Source of the DNA: Actinomycetota bacterium | GTDB lineage: Bacteria; Actinomycetota; Actinomycetes; Nanopelagicales; Nanopelagicaceae | DNA length: 64,000 nucleotides | Direction: 5' to 3' | NCBI GenBank assembly: GCA_027728065.1 | Contig: JAQBVO010000007.1 | Span: 1-64,000 of the forward strand | Part shown: one piece after another, positions 24,822-31,753 of the stretch | Numbering within the stretch: position 1 is the stretch's first letter | Layout of the letters: the number at the start of each line of letters is the position of its first letter | Notes under the pieces: generated by a model | Seen by the model: only the letters and a program-made list of their open reading frames with translations | The model's database searches: none | What the model was told of the DNA's origin: nothing | Made by a program: the position numbers and the translations under genes

Positions 24822-25586
24822 GTGAGTCCTGATTCTCGTCTTCGGCTATCGCCTAGCAGTGTCAATGATTACAACAACTGCCCCCAGCTCTATAAATATC
24901 GCTCAATAGATCGCTTACCCCAACCTCCGAGTCTTGATGCAGAACGTGGAACTCTTGTGCACACTGTTTTACATGATTTATTCGAGAGTATTCCTAGTAA
25001 TCGAACGCCAGAGACGGCCATTGATTTACTGCCATCCAGATGGCGCGCGCAGGTCGATGCAAAGCCAGAGTTAGCGCAGATGGTAACTAATGAAAAGGAG
25101 TGGCTCGATCGCGCATCATCGCTATTGACAACGTATTTTTCACTCGAACAGCCTGCTTCATTTGAAGCCACACACCGCGAAATGCATTTGGAAGATGATT
25201 TAGAAGAAAATGTGTATCTCCATGGTTACGTTGATCGCCTCGATATTGCGCCAACTGGAGAGGTACGCATCGTCGACTATAAAACCGGAAAAGCTCCGCG
25301 GCCAGGCTGGGAGGATAAGGCTCTCTTTCAGTTACGTGTCTATGCACTCTTGTATTGGAAGAGAAGTGGAGTACTCCCCCAACTGCTGCAGTTGATTTAC
25401 TTGGGCGATGGTAAGTTGGTGAAAAGTAATCCAACAATGGCAGATCTTGAATCGGCTAAAAAGATTCTACGCCAAACAGCACGTGATATTTTTATCTCGA
25501 TTGAAAAAGATTACTGGCCACCAAAACCAAGCAGACTATGCGATTGGTGTTTCTTTAAAACTATCTGTCCAGCACACGTGAGTTAA
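24822..25586 (+). CDS. RecB-family PD-(D/E)XK exonuclease
   Basis: Single-domain nuclease (Rv2119 type, Cas4/AddB-like). It has LSPSSVNDYNNCPQLYKYR at the N-terminus, a GTLVHTVLHDLFE histidine motif near 43-55 and the catalytic HGYVDRLD...VRIVDYKTGK block near 135-155. Four cysteines (one in NNCPQLYKYR and three in LCDWCFFKTICPAH) are placed as in nucleases that carry a 4Fe-4S cluster. 254 aa from a GTG at 24822. Its stop overlaps the convergent HAD gene by 4 bases. Probably in DNA repair; the exact role is unknown. Confidence 0.87.
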   Translation: MSPDSRLRLSPSSVNDYNNCPQLYKYRSIDRLPQPPSLDAERGTLVHTVLHDLFESIPSNRTPETAIDLLPSRWRAQVDAKPELAQMVTNEKEWLDRASSLLTTYFSLEQPASFEATHREMHLEDDLEENVYLHGYVDRLDIAPTGEVRIVDYKTGKAPRPGWEDKALFQLRVYALLYWKRSGVLPQLLQLIYLGDGKLVKSNPTMADLESAKKILRQTARDIFISIEKDYWPPKPSRLCDWCFFKTICPAHVS

Positions 25587-26269
25587 ATATCGAGAGAAAA
25601 ATCGTAGAAAAGCTCCTGCAGTTTTACAAATGAAAGCTGCTCCAGGCTCACTATGCTCCTTACTTTTTCACTTTCGATAACGTGAACCAGATGTGGTACC
25701 GCTATGAGCCAGGCTCCAGATGCTTTTGCTGCGCTAACCCCAGTTAATGAATCTTCAAAGATGAGGGATTTATCTATCGCAGCAGCGCACTTTTTTGCCG
25801 CTAAGAGATAGGCATCGGGGTGCGGCTTCGTGTTGGCAACGTCATCTTCACTAATTGAAAATGGAAAGAGATTATCGCCAAGGTTTTCAAGAACTGCATC
25901 AACAATTACTCGTGGGCTGGCTGAAACCAAGGCCGTAGCAATGCCATGTGCCTGTAACTGGTGTACCAGTTCGATAGCACCAGGCATCAGTGGTGTTCGA
26001 CCACGAAGTTTTTGACACTGAACATCTATGAGTTTGTTTGTAAAATATTGCCCTGATTCAAGTCCGTTGCATTTGGCAGACATATATTCACCCACCCGCC
26101 AGAGTGGACCACCTAAACATGCAACTTGATCGGCACTTGTCCACATATATCCATATGCGCCAGTAATCTCTGTCTCAGACTCTAGCCACAAAGGTTCAGA
26201 GTCAACTAAAAGACCGTCCATGTCAAAGAAGACCGCGTCAAAAAATCTGGGTAGTTGGGATTTCTTCAT
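25583..26269 (-). CDS. HAD-superfamily hydrolase, beta-phosphoglucomutase-like
   Basis: Phosphatase or phosphomutase of the HAD fold. Motif I DAVFFDMDGLLVDSEPLW (about 11-28, nucleophile first Asp of DMDG), motif II LVSASPR near 114-120, the lysine in TKPHPDAYL and motif IV IFEDSLTGVSAA. 228 aa with a cap domain inserted after motif I. Sequence does not fix the substrate. A TAGCCT element lies 7 bases before the ATG, suggesting a leaderless message. Confidence 0.87.
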   Translation of the reverse strand: MKKSQLPRFFDAVFFDMDGLLVDSEPLWLESETEITGAYGYMWTSADQVACLGGPLWRVGEYMSAKCNGLESGQYFTNKLIDVQCQKLRGRTPLMPGAIELVHQLQAHGIATALVSASPRVIVDAVLENLGDNLFPFSISEDDVANTKPHPDAYLLAAKKCAAAIDKSLIFEDSLTGVSAAKASGAWLIAVPHLVHVIESEKVRSIVSLEQLSFVKLQELFYDFSLDI

Positions 26270-26276
26270 TTGCGGC

Positions 26277-26282
26277 AGGCTA
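26277..26282 (-). promoter_or_regulatory. Leaderless -10 element for the HAD gene
   Basis: Minus-strand TAGCCT, 7 bases, then ATG at 26269. It lies in the 51-base gap after mshC. Confidence 0.5.
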
Positions 26283-26320
26283 CCGTAAGAGTTCGTGGCA
26301 AGATACTCGATTATCCAGGA

Positions 26321-27562
26321 TTAAAACTGCAAACCAAGCAAGGAATCCAGGGCATCTTTAAGCTCTTGAGCATCTCCCCTAGTTGATCCATCGAGAGTTT
26401 TATCGACCCATGTTGTGACTGCTCGTAATACTCTAGGTGTATCTAGATCATCGGCGAGAGAATCGATGATCTCATTTATCAGCGGCTTTGTTTCATGCAC
26501 TGTAGCCATTGATAAAGCCAGATTAATTCTGCGGATTGATTCTTGCGCAGACTCCAATTTCTCGCTGCTCCACATCCGGTCCTTGCGATAGTGATCGGTG
26601 AGCAATGCATAACGAATAGCGCGCGGATCAGCGCCTTGGGCGATTAATGAAGATACTAGAACTAAATTTCCTTCACTCTTACTCATTTTTTCGCCATTAA
26701 GACCAATCATTCCAGCATGCACGTAATTCGTCGCCAACTCTTTGCCGGTCAAAATCATTGCTTGAGCCCGGCACATCTCGTGATGAGGAAATATTAAATC
26801 GCTACCGCCTCCCTGTATATCTATCAGATATTGACCTGTGGACTCTGGTGATAAATACTTAAGGGCAATTGCTGTGCACTCGATATGCCAACCTGGACGT
26901 CCTGCACCCAAAGTTGAAGGCCATCCAGGCTCCCCCTCGCGTTGTGACATCCATACTAAACAATCAAGTGAGTTTAATTTGCCGGCGCGTGTTGGGTCTC
27001 CCCCTCGCTGGGCGAAGATAACCTCCATTTCGGTATGGTTCAAATGAGATAGTTCTCCAAAACCAGATTGTGGTGAGTTAGAGAAGTAGTAATCCTGGTC
27101 AATTGCATATACAGCCCCTCGCCTTTGCAGAGATTGGATTGCATCAACCACAAGTGGAATAGCCTCTACGGCACCGATGTAATGTGTTGGTGGAATAACT
27201 CTTAAATGCTCCATGTCACTGGCAAAAAGTAAGACCTGAGAGTGAGCAAGATCGCGCCAATCTATGCTATCGCGTCTAGCCCGTTCGAGAAGTGGATCAT
27301 CAACGTCGGTAATATTTTGTACATAGTTTACCTCTGCACCCGAAGCGAGCAGATATCTATTGATTAAATCAAAGGTGACATATGTGGCCGCATGACCTAA
27401 ATGTGTTGCATCATACGGCGTTATTCCACAGACATACATGCGCTGTAGAGCTTTGCGAGTAACCTCTTCTTTGGCACCGGTTCGTGAATTCGTTAAAGAG
27501 AGGTTGGAGGTATTGAGTCCAAATCCCAGGGCTGGAACCCGTGGCTTACTCCAGGAGTCCAT
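26321..27562 (-). CDS. mshC: Cysteine:GlcN-Ins ligase (mycothiol biosynthesis)
   Basis: ATP-dependent ligase that couples L-cysteine to 1-D-myo-inosityl-glucosamine, the penultimate step to mycothiol, the main actinobacterial thiol buffer. It is a cysteinyl-tRNA synthetase relative: CGITPYDATHLGHA (HIGH-type motif) near residue 44, ITDVDDPLLERA, WHIECTAIA and KMSKS (in GEKMSKSEGNLV). At 413 aa it lacks the synthetase's tRNA-binding tail, as MshC does. The ATG at 27562 is chosen because TAGGAT lies exactly 6 bases upstream; an ATG at 27568 would overlap that spacing. Confidence 0.92.
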   Translation of the reverse strand: MDSWSKPRVPALGFGLNTSNLSLTNSRTGAKEEVTRKALQRMYVCGITPYDATHLGHAATYVTFDLINRYLLASGAEVNYVQNITDVDDPLLERARRDSIDWRDLAHSQVLLFASDMEHLRVIPPTHYIGAVEAIPLVVDAIQSLQRRGAVYAIDQDYYFSNSPQSGFGELSHLNHTEMEVIFAQRGGDPTRAGKLNSLDCLVWMSQREGEPGWPSTLGAGRPGWHIECTAIALKYLSPESTGQYLIDIQGGGSDLIFPHHEMCRAQAMILTGKELATNYVHAGMIGLNGEKMSKSEGNLVLVSSLIAQGADPRAIRYALLTDHYRKDRMWSSEKLESAQESIRRINLALSMATVHETKPLINEIIDSLADDLDTPRVLRAVTTWVDKTLDGSTRGDAQELKDALDSLLGLQF

Positions 27563-27568
27563 TGGCAT

Positions 27569-27574
27569 ATCCTA
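27569..27574 (-). promoter_or_regulatory. Leaderless -10 element for mshC
   Basis: Minus-strand TAGGAT, then 6 bases (ATGCCA), then ATG at 27562. It chooses the second of two nearby ATGs as the start. Confidence 0.5.
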
Positions 27575-27586
27575 GTAATCGCAGAG

Positions 27587-28291
27587 TTAAAAAGCAGGCC
27601 AAGGAATGGGTGGCCAATCGGTGCTTGGCACGGGCATAAGAGCAGTTTCAATCAATCGTTCAAGGCGCTGATGTAAAGCGGTAATCTCTTCCGAGTGTAA
27701 GTAGGGTGAGAGATCCAGAGTGGTAGAGAGAACCGCTAAAGTTTTTTTTATTAATTCAATTTCGCTATCTGTGAGTCGATCTCCAGACCATTGCCATAGC
27801 ACTGTACGCAATTTATCTTCACGATGGAAAGTAACCCCGTGATCACATCCGTAGAGCTTGCCTGATTTTGTTGGTAGTAGATGACCAATTTTTCTATCGG
27901 TATTATTAATAATGGCATCAAAGAGAGCCATGGTTCGTAGTGGGGCAAGATCTAGTGAAAAAAACGCAGCTAAATCGACGCTCTCATCTATATCGATCCA
28001 CTCCTGAACCATTCCCTCGCCAAAAGGACCTTGGCGCAGAATAGTAAGAGGAACCAGATCAAAACCCATCGCGCTACTTACTAAATATGCGGCATATTCG
28101 CGATGAGCGAGTGATCCATCGTGGAAGTCCCACAATGGACGCTCTCCAGCGATCGGTTTATAGATGCAAGCCATCGATTTATCGCCATCACCAACGGTTG
28201 CATATAAAGTTGCATTCGAGGCATCAATTAAGCGACCGGTTACAACCAACTCTCCCCGCGACATGAGTTCTAATCTATCGTCGATAACCAT
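27587..28291 (-). CDS. SCO1664-family protein, kinase-like fold, function unknown
   Basis: Actinobacterial family with features of the PI3/PI4-kinase/HipA-like fold: a possible ATP lysine in ACIYKPIAGERPLWDF, a conserved Glu in SLAHREYAAYLV, a catalytic-loop-like DAIINNTDRKIGHLL and a metal-site-like YGCDHGVTFHRED. This suggests phosphotransfer, but the substrate is unknown. The start chosen is the ATG at 28291, with GAGGG just upstream and a 17-base overlap with the DUF3090 gene; an ATG at 28264 is an alternative. 234 aa. It is followed 24 bases later by mshC, so a link to inositol or mycothiol chemistry is possible. Confidence 0.8.
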   Translation of the reverse strand: MVIDDRLELMSRGELVVTGRLIDASNATLYATVGDGDKSMACIYKPIAGERPLWDFHDGSLAHREYAAYLVSSAMGFDLVPLTILRQGPFGEGMVQEWIDIDESVDLAAFFSLDLAPLRTMALFDAIINNTDRKIGHLLPTKSGKLYGCDHGVTFHREDKLRTVLWQWSGDRLTDSEIELIKKTLAVLSTTLDLSPYLHSEEITALHQRLERLIETALMPVPSTDWPPIPWPAF

Positions 28292-28781
28292 TTGCCCTCG
28301 GACATAAATGACCCTGCGGATCGATAGGGATGCTACAGAATGGGCATGGCAGACGACCTGCATTGATAAGTGCCTTTGAGCGCTTCACAAATGAGTCACA
28401 GAGCGAGATGCTCAGATACACCTTGAGTGAATTCTCTGCCTCCTGCTCACCAGTGGTCAATTCAAAGAGCTCAATGCTCATCTTCAAACTCACTTCATCC
28501 CAGGCAATTGATATCGAGCCCACTTCAAACTCAGGCTCTATTGGAGTTGAAAGAGGAGCAACATCAACAGGCTGCACATCACGATATAAAGTAGGGTCGC
28601 CTCGCCGCAGATCTTTAAGGACCATCTCCAGCCGTTCGGCTAAAGCGGCAACCTGTGTTTTTTCTAAGGCAACGGTGGTAAGTCGGCGCGAACTTTGAAC
28701 CTGGATAAAAAAGGCACGTTCTCCTGGAGCACCTACTGTGCCTGCGATGAATCGATCAACCGACTCAAATATAGAACTCAC
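28275..28781 (-). CDS. DUF3090 protein with C-terminal zinc ribbon
   Basis: A 168-aa actinobacterial protein of unknown function. The N-terminal part (FESVDRFIAGTVGAPGERAF, then FIQVQSSRRLTTVALEKTQV) is a predicted beta-rich domain. The C-terminus has CPFCSIPIDPQGHLCPRANG, a likely C-x2-C...H-x-C zinc site. It is translationally coupled to both neighbours: its ATG overlaps the phosphatase stop by 4 bases and its 3' end overlaps the SCO1664-like gene by 17. The three probably act as a unit. Confidence 0.85.
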   Translation of the reverse strand: MSSIFESVDRFIAGTVGAPGERAFFIQVQSSRRLTTVALEKTQVAALAERLEMVLKDLRRGDPTLYRDVQPVDVAPLSTPIEPEFEVGSISIAWDEVSLKMSIELFELTTGEQEAENSLKVYLSISLCDSFVKRSKALINAGRLPCPFCSIPIDPQGHLCPRANGYRR

Positions 28782-29455
28782 TTACCCGCTCCCCCGCCAA
28801 GTGAGTGAGGTTTTCTATAGGCAGTATTGATAAAACTCTCCAACTTAGCCCTTGAGTCGTTAAGCAAAACTAGCCGTGGTTTGCTTGCGCCAAACTCAAT
28901 TACACTCACCGACGCCGGATCTATCACGATGCGATTAAAATCATCTAAATGCATTCCTAATGCTGAAGCTACAATTGATTTGATTACATCGCCGTGGGTA
29001 ACCAAGATGACGGCCCCTTTTTTCTTGGTCGCTATAGCTTCATGAACGCAACGCATTGCCCGTTCTTGCATCTGGGCCAATCCCTCGCCTTGAGGAAAAT
29101 ACATTGCACTGGGATTATTTTGCACAGTTTTCCAAAGTCTGTTCGTAGAAAGAAGCGATAACTTCTTCCCACTCCATTTGCCATAGTCAACTTCGATGAG
29201 ATTGGGATCTGTAACTAAACTCACTCCGCGATTTGTTGCACTACCTACCTCATTCCACCATGGCTTAATCGATTGGGCGCAACGCTCAAGCGGACTAATT
29301 CGCAGTTCGGCAACTTTGATAGACCCTAATCTGCTTATTAACTCATGAGCTTGCACTAACCCTTGTGCAGATAGGCCGACACCTGATAATCGACCAGAAA
29401 GTATGCCTTTGGCATTGGCCTGTGAATGGGCATGTCGAATCAAAACTACCTGCAT
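28778..29455 (-). CDS. Histidine phosphatase family protein (MSMEG_4193-type)
   Basis: Phosphoglycerate-mutase-superfamily phosphatase. N-terminal LIRHAHSQANAKG carries the catalytic His (RHAH in place of the usual RHG), and VTHGDVIKSIV carries the second His (near residue 153). 225 aa. First gene of a three-gene coupled set with DUF3090 and the SCO1664-like protein upstream of mshC, an arrangement kept in many actinobacteria. It may dephosphorylate a small molecule; the substrate is not known. A TAGCCT element lies 7 bases before the ATG. Confidence 0.86.
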   Translation of the reverse strand: MQVVLIRHAHSQANAKGILSGRLSGVGLSAQGLVQAHELISRLGSIKVAELRISPLERCAQSIKPWWNEVGSATNRGVSLVTDPNLIEVDYGKWSGKKLSLLSTNRLWKTVQNNPSAMYFPQGEGLAQMQERAMRCVHEAIATKKKGAVILVTHGDVIKSIVASALGMHLDDFNRIVIDPASVSVIEFGASKPRLVLLNDSRAKLESFINTAYRKPHSLGGGAGK

Positions 29456-29462
29456 AAAGCTA

Positions 29463-29468
29463 AGGCTA
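29463..29468 (-). promoter_or_regulatory. Leaderless -10 element for the histidine phosphatase gene
   Basis: Minus-strand TAGCCT, 7 bases, then ATG at 29455. Confidence 0.45.
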
Positions 29469-29494
29469 TCGCAGCTTTTGCGCTCACGTCTTGC

Positions 29495-29500
29495 TAAGGT
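29495..29500 (+). promoter_or_regulatory. Leaderless -10 element for the aldo/keto reductase gene
   Basis: TAAGGT, 6 bases (CGCTCC), then ATG at 29507. It lies back to back with the divergent phosphatase promoter in a 51-base gap. Confidence 0.5.
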
Positions 29501-29506
29501 CGCTCC

Positions 29507-30460
29507 ATGGAAATGCGCAGAGCGGGAAATAGTGGTTTAACGCTCTCACGTTTGGGTTTAGGCACCATGACATGGGGACGAGATACCGACGAGCATGAGG
29601 CGGCCGATCAATGTCGTGCATTTATTGATGCTGGTGGAAATTTTATCGATACGGCAAATACATATGGTGATGGTGATAGCGAAAGAGTATTGGGCGGCTT
29701 GGTAGGTGTTCTCTTTGATCGTGATGATGTCATCATCGCTACAAAATCCGGTGTGGGTTTTCCAGATGGAATCAGAAGTGTTGATGCATCACGGCAAACA
29801 TTGCTCTCTGAACTAGATAAATCCCTGTCTCGTTTGGGCAGCGATTTCGTCGATATTTGGCAGATACATGCCTGGGATCCAATTACGCCCCTAGATGAAA
29901 CTCTCGCCGCACTTGATTATGCATATACAACTGGACGTGCACGTTATGTGGGATTAAGTAACTACGCAGGATGGCAACTTGCGCGTGCGGCTACTAAACA
30001 ACAGTCGAACTCAATGAAGGCACCAATTACTACGCTTCAATCTGAGTACTCACTTCTTAATAGAGATGTTGAAATTGAAGTGCTGGAAGCTGCTAATAAC
30101 TGTGGTATTGGTTTCTTGGCCTGGGCACCTTTGGCTCGAGGTGTACTGACCGGCAAGTACCGCAATGGAGTTCCTAGTGACTCTCGCGCAGCTGCCCCAC
30201 ACTTTAATCGCCATATCGAGCCATATTTAGATGAGCGCAGTAATCGAACCGTAGATGCCGTTGCAGTTGCAGCTTCGGGACTTGGTTACTCGCCACTTGA
30301 AGTCGCCCTTTCCTGGGTACGTGATGCACCAGGAGTAACTAGTGCAATTATTGGCGCACGTAGCGGCGCGCAGTTGCGCGGAGTCTTAAAGAGTGAAGAG
30401 ATAACTCTTCCCGATATTGTGCGCAATGCATTAAACGATGTGAGCCTAACAACTCTCTAG
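29507..30460 (+). CDS. Aldo/keto reductase
   Basis: NADPH-dependent oxidoreductase of the AKR superfamily. The catalytic tetrad is complete: D48 and Y53 (NFIDTANTYGDG), K80 (IIATKSG) and H121 (IWQIHAWDP). The C-terminal cofactor-binding block VTSAIIGARSGAQLRG is near 278-293. 317 aa. Sequence does not define the substrate. It converges on the M20 peptidase gene with a 15-base overlap. Confidence 0.9.
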   Translation: MEMRRAGNSGLTLSRLGLGTMTWGRDTDEHEAADQCRAFIDAGGNFIDTANTYGDGDSERVLGGLVGVLFDRDDVIIATKSGVGFPDGIRSVDASRQTLLSELDKSLSRLGSDFVDIWQIHAWDPITPLDETLAALDYAYTTGRARYVGLSNYAGWQLARAATKQQSNSMKAPITTLQSEYSLLNRDVEIEVLEAANNCGIGFLAWAPLARGVLTGKYRNGVPSDSRAAAPHFNRHIEPYLDERSNRTVDAVAVAASGLGYSPLEVALSWVRDAPGVTSAIIGARSGAQLRGVLKSEEITLPDIVRNALNDVSLTTL

Positions 30461-31753
30461 AAAATCCTTTAAAACTCGGACGCCGAATGTTAGGCCCTCA
30501 ACTGGAACGCGTTCATCGACGCCATGAAACATCGCCATGAAATCGAAATCTTTATCCAGCTTCAAAGGCGAAAAGCCATACCCGATAATTCCCAAATCCG
30601 CTAGCGCCTTATTATCGGTGCCACCACTCATAAGATATGGAACTGGAATAGCCTGCGGATCCTCTTTGATAATCGAGCGAGACATTGCATCGACTAAATC
30701 ACCTTCAAAAGGTACTTCAAGAGCCTTATCACGTGTAATAGTTTCAACACTAATGTGGGCTCCGATTAATCCTTTTATCGTTTCAATGAGTTCATCTTCA
30801 AAACCTGGAATGAAACGTCCATCGATTACGGCGCTAGCCGAACTAGGTATTACGTTTGCTTTGTATCCAGCCTCTAGCATCGTTGGGTTGGCAGTGTTTT
30901 GCAGTGTTGCACCGATCATGCGAGCGGCAAATCCAAACTCGTCAAGTAATGGGCGCAGATCTTTTTCGTCGTATACCTTGCCGCTAGCTGCCGCCACTCT
31001 TTTGAGAAGCTCTTTAACGGTAGCGCTATAGCGCTGTGGCCATTGATAATTTCCAATCTGGGCAACGGCCGCTGTTAGTCGTGTTAATGCATTCTCATTA
31101 TTGATGACCGAACCATGGCCAGCACGTCCTCGGGCCGTTAGCCTCATCCAGTGAATACCTTTTTCGGCAGTTTCGATCATGTACAGACGTTTGCCGCCCC
31201 CGACGGTAACTGAAAACCCGCCAACTTCTGAGATTGCTTCACTGCAGCCAGCAAAGAGTTGCGGGTAGTTTTTAACCATCCAATGAGATCCCAAGATACT
31301 TCCAGCCTCCTCATCGGCAAAAAAAGCTAGAACAATATCTCGCGGTGGAACATAACCAGTACGGGCCCAATCCCTAACAGTGGCAAGAATCATGGCATCC
31401 ATGTTCTTCATATCTACTGCTCCACGGCCCCAAATCATTCCATCGATAATGTCGCCGCAAAATGGATCTACGCTCCAATCGTCGGCATTAGCTGGAACAA
31501 CATCTAGATGTCCATGCACAACTAAACCCGCACGCGCAGAATCTCTTCCTGCTATTCGTGTGATGACATTGCAACGTCCTGGTGCTGATTCGTAAATAGA
31601 TGATGAGATACCAACTTCGGCAAGGCAGGCAACAACATAATCAGCGACGGCTCTCTCATCTCCTTTTCCATCGCCGAAGTTAACGCTAGGAATTCTGATT
31701 AAATCTTGGCAGATTCGTATAACTTCATCCTCGAGGCCTTGCCTATTAGTCAT
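30446..31753 (-). CDS. M20-family metallopeptidase (dipeptidase/deacylase-like)
   Basis: Di-zinc amidohydrolase of the M20/ArgE/DapE/CPG2 class. Zinc ligands are seen in LVVHGHLDVVPA and in WGRGAVDMKNMD; the catalytic Glu is in AFFADEEAGSILGS; a late ligand is in PYLMSGGTDNKALA. 435 aa, normal for the general peptidase branch and longer than DapE. A peptide or N-acyl amino acid is the likely substrate. Upstream, GAGAAT 6 bases before the ATG may be an imperfect -10 element. Confidence 0.87.
   Translation of the reverse strand: MTNRQGLEDEVIRICQDLIRIPSVNFGDGKGDERAVADYVVACLAEVGISSSIYESAPGRCNVITRIAGRDSARAGLVVHGHLDVVPANADDWSVDPFCGDIIDGMIWGRGAVDMKNMDAMILATVRDWARTGYVPPRDIVLAFFADEEAGSILGSHWMVKNYPQLFAGCSEAISEVGGFSVTVGGGKRLYMIETAEKGIHWMRLTARGRAGHGSVINNENALTRLTAAVAQIGNYQWPQRYSATVKELLKRVAAASGKVYDEKDLRPLLDEFGFAARMIGATLQNTANPTMLEAGYKANVIPSSASAVIDGRFIPGFEDELIETIKGLIGAHISVETITRDKALEVPFEGDLVDAMSRSIIKEDPQAIPVPYLMSGGTDNKALADLGIIGYGFSPLKLDKDFDFMAMFHGVDERVPVEGLTFGVRVLKDFLESC

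Follow-up and report, generated by a model that had tools for sequence, protein, structure and literature searches.

What do the products of the three small genes that stand directly ahead of the mycothiol gene mshC in a member of the Nanopelagicaceae (Actinomycetota; assembly GCA_027728065.1) do, and does this neighbour betray their substrate? The genes lie in the first 64,000 nucleotides of contig JAQBVO010000007.1, the stretch that was analysed here and is called the window below. A preliminary description had read them, from the letters alone, as a coupled unit of a phosphatase, a zinc-site protein and a kinase-like protein, and had guessed at an inositol phosphate or a mycothiol precursor as their substrate. 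The host genome (1.4 Mb in 45 contigs), which is closest among named organisms to Candidatus Planktophila MAGs (69% identity for the SCO1664 protein), carries MshA as well as an inositol-1-phosphate synthase, the latter split across two contig ends.

On the minus strand, transcription runs from the histidine phosphatase gene (28778..29455) through the genes for DUF3090 (28275..28781) and the SCO1664 family kinase (27587..28291) to mshC (26321..27568), which encodes the cysteine ligase of mycothiol synthesis, and on to a HAD-IA hydrolase gene (25583..26269), a second phosphatase located 51 bases past mshC and outside the trio. The three reading frames, their strand and their overlaps are as first described: the GTG start of DUF3090 overlaps the phosphatase stop by 4 bases, and SCO1664, beginning with the ATG at 28291, shares the last 17 bases of DUF3090. 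The frame of SCO1664 stays open up to an earlier ATG at 28363; the family profile begins near 28261-28291. The interval of 24 bases formerly given between the trio and mshC holds if the second ATG (27562) starts mshC, but shrinks to 18 bases from the first (27568). An Rfam search of positions 25000-30500 matched no RNA element, promoter-like matches at the window locus were at chance level (5 observed against 6.9 expected), and terminator-like matches (7 observed against 3.4 expected) fell at none of the gene junctions.

The three families are already catalogued in NCBIfam, and the window proteins are members of them by score: the phosphatase reaches 221 bits against TIGR03848 (MSMEG_4193 family; curated cut-off 203.85), DUF3090 168 bits against TIGR03847 (cut-off 117.25) and 159 bits against PF11290 (cut-off 27), and the SCO1664 protein 284 bits against TIGR03843 (cut-off 172.4), while MshC scores 535 bits against TIGR03447 (cut-off 485.1). 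The motifs singled out beforehand (the YKP lysine, NNTDRKIGH, CDHG and the Cys/His site) are all present in the sequences. Compared with the Streptomyces copies, the window proteins are shorter and more diverged, and the gap to mshC is shorter; the gene order is that of the rest of the phylum. In Actinomadura, Nonomuraea and Streptosporangium (L079, L093 and L101), a gene starting MCTVAVSIDP, which we presume to be NRDE/TANGO2-like, is located between SCO1664 and mshC. A search of the openly accessible literature returned no functional study of the SCO1664 or DUF3090 family, only listings in screens.

The trio is an ancient set conserved in its phylum. All 122 complete loci from across the phylum carry the phosphatase, DUF3090 and kinase genes in this order on a single strand, a constancy of order far beyond chance that bears out the coupling of the three genes. 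Of 197 sampled Actinomycetota genomes, the 81 with SCO1664 all have DUF3090, as does one further genome, a marginal 18.9-bit match in G165 having been left out of this count. Among the sampled Actinomycetes, the kinase was detected in 139 of 148 and the phosphatase in 140 of 148, and numerous deeper-branching lineages of the phylum have the trio genes as well; we take Rv2133c-Rv2135c to be the trio of M. tuberculosis. At the level of residues, K45, E65, D125, N130, D132, R133, K134, H137, D150 and R162 do not vary in any of the 131 kinases, and a survey of 126-131 loci found R7, H8, R58, E88 and H154 of the phosphatase to be essentially invariant.

The kinase-like character ascribed to the third gene was upheld by these invariant catalytic residues and by the predicted fold. 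An AlphaFold2 model of SCO1664 (pLDDT 89.9) finds its best structural match in PI4-kinase II (beta/alpha; Z 18.2, rmsd 3.2 over 218 residues), with further matches to FAM20 (Z 15.0), CtkA (13.2) and HipA (11.0), and a sequence profile of 24 SCO1664 relatives matches PI4K2B (E 1.5e-4) and, weakly, FAM20B, a sugar (xylose) kinase (E 0.045). In the model, the protein would adopt a PI4K type II fold with K45 as the predicted ATP lysine, D132 as the catalytic and D150 as the metal-binding aspartate. The likeness to PI4K2A/B takes in almost all of the chain (Z 18) and includes a YKP-like lysine, a DRxxx loop and an IDxG metal site; SCO1664 is, however, only 234 residues long, compared with 340-490 in the solved PI4K2A/B chains, and its role as a lipid kinase is putative. 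As a single sequence it scores below the gathering threshold of the Pfam PI3/PI4 kinase family PF00454 (15.8 bits, E 0.014, against 27.1), and its catalytic loop, NxDRKxGH, places His137 five residues after the catalytic Asp, a position occupied by Asn in PI4K II. Taken at the level of the model, the data support the assignment of SCO1664 as a putative kinase of the PI4-kinase II/FAM20/HipA fold in which all catalytic residues are present. Since the related folds include protein kinases (FAM20C, HipA, CtkA) along with lipid and sugar kinases, the substrate cannot be read from the fold.

The first gene is a phosphatase by family, as had been supposed, and retains the RH...R...E...H catalytic residues (R7, H8, R58, E88, H154). 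Among solved structures, its profile is nearest to phosphoserine phosphatase 1, a bacterial broad phosphatase and CobC enzymes. We assume that Rv2135c of M. tuberculosis belongs to the same family; both are histidine phosphatases with an RHA motif, the activity of the window protein being predicted. Rv2135c has weak acid phosphatase activity, on pNPP, PEP, glycerol-1-P and fructose-6-P, and no phosphoglycerate mutase activity; inositol compounds are absent from its listed substrates (PMC3866925).

Natural variants of the trio bear on how its members depend on one another. G246 (L133:5605-8149) has kept the phosphatase, DUF3090 and mshC, the last two about 70 bases apart, and is missing the kinase, so that kinase and phosphatase need not occur together in every case. 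Several lineages do without DUF3090: two Frankia loci (L073, L074) possess phosphatase and kinase with no detectable DUF3090 between them, followed in L074 by mshC; C. glutamicum gives profile matches to SCO1664 and TIGR03848 and none to DUF3090; and G008 carries a second cassette (L132:8892-10266) in which phosphatase and kinase genes stand one base apart without DUF3090. The proteins of this second cassette are closest to those of family f28 (65% identity for the phosphatase and 54% for the kinase), and the two genes were probably acquired horizontally. They adjoin an LLM-class oxidoreductase-like gene, and the same genome encodes two inositol synthases, one of them beside an MshA-like gene. 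The occurrence of phosphatase and kinase alone in G008 and the two Frankia is as expected if these two proteins constitute the enzymatic core. Among the loci examined there was no established case of the phosphatase alone missing with kinase and DUF3090 retained; L059, L112, L116, L126 and L129 show kinase and DUF3090 with no phosphatase match, and in most of them a contig start is close by.

The retention of kinase and phosphatase together over the age of the phylum is most simply explained by opposite actions on one phosphate group. We tentatively put forward, as the preferred of several possible readings, that they form an opposed pair acting with a DUF3090 adaptor on an inositol-containing phospho-compound. 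The trio would be a small, ancient, cytosolic phosphorylation module, in which the SCO1664 kinase, of the PI4-kinase II/FAM20 type, would add a phosphate that the TIGR03848 phosphatase, by presumption its opponent, would remove, and DUF3090, with a predicted PUR-like domain and zinc knuckle, would be accessory. The shared substrate would most likely contain inositol, be it an inositol phosphate, phosphatidylinositol or a pseudodisaccharide; the pair might control how much of a phospho-inositol compound is available to lipid and thiol synthesis, and the trio may have become co-expressed with mshC in Actinomycetes. Such a substrate is favoured by the PI4K-II-like fold, by the weak likeness to FAM20B, by the class-wide adjacency to mshC and by the presence of inositol-1-phosphate synthase in 79 of the 82 trio genomes (against 58 of 115 others). 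The synthases of trio genomes are of two distinct types, matching TIGR03450 or PF07994; PF07994 as the only profile misses the actinobacterial type, and TIGR03450 was added. The association is also affected by shared ancestry. Inositol synthesis alone was rejected as an explanation for the distribution of the trio, since 58 genomes have a synthase and no trio; a synthase without MshA is encoded in 62 genomes, 7 of which have the trio.

The surroundings of the trio lend themselves to another interpretation, by which the trio serves some other, unrelated housekeeping phospho-metabolite (a sugar phosphate, say, or a terpenoid phosphate) and owes its position beside mshC to inheritance, without functional meaning. 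Outside class Actinomycetes, mshC was near the trio in none of 20 loci, and the trio adjoins differing genes there (FumC, ETF subunits, ProS and others); the class neighbourhood likewise contains unrelated genes, for an aldo/keto reductase, an LLM oxidoreductase, PAC2 and MetH. Just upstream of the phosphatase gene in G246 lies uppP, which adjoins the phosphatase gene in mycobacteria as well (PMC3866925). An accident of inheritance sits poorly, however, with the finding that 17 of the 18 class Actinomycetes genomes (all but G008) have mshC no farther than 1.7 kb from the kinase gene, an adjacency that many orders of the class have retained, mostly with very short gaps, and with the near-constant inositol synthase of trio genomes. 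On balance we hold this interpretation to be possible, if somewhat doubtful.

A protein or RNA target is nearly as likely as an inositol-containing substrate. The corresponding switch, in which the kinase would modify a protein (as HipA, CtkA and FAM20C do) or an RNA, the phosphatase would reverse the modification and DUF3090 would recruit the target, draws on a kinase fold that is common to protein kinases and on the model of DUF3090. The latter (pLDDT 91.1) matches PURA repeats I-II (Z 10.0, rmsd 3.3 over 110 residues), an alpha/beta arrangement similar to the PUR-alpha/Whirly fold that binds single-stranded nucleic acids. Unlike these proteins, DUF3090 has an extra C-terminal CCHC site and shares no detected sequence similarity with them, and its binding of nucleic acids is putative. 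The Cys/His zinc site claimed for the second gene does correspond to this CCHC set (C146/C149/H158/C160), which is nearly invariant in the residue survey; zinc binding is putative. The Foldseek matches of the DUF3090 model are weak (best E 6e-3), a sequence search against solved structures gave nothing credible, and a common fold is no function. DUF3090 is moreover dispensed with in several lineages, and TIGR03848 resembles small-molecule phosphatases (phosphoserine phosphatase, CobC). We consider a macromolecular switch of this kind possible, but doubtful.

A more specific reading, in line with the guess made from the sequence, is that the TIGR03848 phosphatase is MshA2, converting GlcNAc-Ins-P to GlcNAc-Ins within the mycothiol pathway (MshA, MshA2, MshB, MshC, MshD), with the kinase and DUF3090 regulating or reversing the step. 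Papers name MshA2 without a gene, and the phosphatase is retained where one member of the trio is missing (G246, Frankia, the second copy of G008 and, by profile, C. glutamicum). The proximity of SCO1664 to mshC is already published: Chandra and Chater noted the close linkage and suggested that SCO1664 may belong to the mycothiol network (PMC4255298). In the window, too, mshC is the gene that follows the trio; outside class Actinomycetes, the trio is separable from the msh genes, and a MshC-like protein is absent from 42 of the 82 trio genomes. MshC as a lone marker of mycothiol was rejected, because the TIGR03447 cut-off hides orthologues outside the class (L157-L172; families f19, f22, f28, f30, f37, f38, f43, f46 and f51); a tree was built instead. 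MshA was called at 369 bits or more, above a gap in the profile scores between 369 and 316 bits. By this measure, the 197 genomes divide into 74 with trio and MshA, 8 with the trio only, 3 with MshA only and 112 with neither (Fisher 8.6e-41), and the trio is present in 74 of 77 MshA genomes, including 36 of the 38 without a MshC-like protein.

The survey of co-occurrence that had been called for thus returns a strong overlap, but a weaker argument than it seems. We rejected the Fisher values at face value, since a CysS tree of 54 of these genomes (a single-gene tree lacking families f14 and f40, with a midpoint root for drawing only) needs one change for MshA, three for the trio and six for inositol synthase, and unites in one group the 25 genomes that lack both MshA and trio. 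The overlap is in essence one ancestral split, and the Fisher values are not independent support. Independent later events are mostly discordant, the discordant outnumbering the concordant ones. Joint loss of MshA and trio is clear only in family f79 (six genomes). Families f32 (G044) and f34 (G055) have kept MshA and are without the trio or any close TIGR03848 relative, and genera g25 and g63 of family f8 (G017, G179, G067) have kept the trio and its neighbours and are missing mshA where their relatives have it. Trio without recognised MshA is also recorded for G007, G061 and G188 and, at the level of families, for f14, f15 and f55; conversely, MshA is encoded and the trio absent in G193, G214 and G295, which, however, are fragmented MAGs. 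The tie of the trio to mycothiol is accordingly borne out only in part and is weaker than it looks: adjacency to mshC stands within the class, and fails outside it. A MshA2 would be expected in every MshA lineage; with f32 and f34 lacking a close TIGR03848 relative, a HAD phosphatase also adjoining mshC (the HAD-IA hydrolase of the window being a rival candidate for the sugar- or inositol-phosphate dephosphorylation of the pathway) and a dedicated kinase for the reverse reaction making little metabolic sense, we judge the identification with MshA2 unlikely.

The genomes with MshA and without a MshC-like protein share another gene. Outside the class, MshA was called in 59 genomes, 38 of which have no MshC-like protein by score, and 36 of these 38 encode a FemAB/GNAT-like protein (PF13480, at least 311 bits); of the two that do not, one is a very fragmented MAG (G013) and the other a genome with a truncated CysS/MshC fragment (G119). 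Among the genomes scored as MshC-like, G189 alone also carries the FemAB-like protein; G056 combines it with a CysS/MshC homologue that is weaker and that, in the tree, groups with G189 apart from the MshC clade. The gene is directly upstream of mshA in families f8, f13, f15, f16, f32, f34, f40 and f44 (L137:7155-8237, L142:4643-5767, L135:3868-4998, L155:4739-5776, L156:4806-5708 and others). In family f14 (L209-L215), where it was identified by eye from translations, it stands beside suf Fe-S genes and not beside mshA, and in L207, L208 and L216 (G017, G067 and G179) it has been kept, like the trio, in an otherwise conserved neighbourhood from which mshA is absent. The FemAB-like protein is possibly an alternative, perhaps tRNA-dependent, cysteine ligase, these counts not being corrected for lineage.

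To return to the opposed pair acting on an inositol-containing compound, its most pointed version, an inositol-phosphate switch in which a phosphoinositide or phospho-GlcN-inositol would be formed by a PI4K-II-like kinase and cleared by the phosphatase, appears quite improbable to us. The tree control warns against treating the co-occurrence with MshA across the phylum as independent evidence; the natural variants, with the kinase lost, with DUF3090 lost or with an apparently transferred two-gene cassette, offer clean comparisons for assay. A phosphatidylinositol phosphate has been reported in mycobacteria. If true, the switch would assign a gene to an orphan step, either MshA2 or the kinase behind this mycobacterial lipid, and the pairing of a PI4K-II-like kinase with a phosphatase in bacteria would be an inositol-phosphate switch of a kind rare in prokaryotes.
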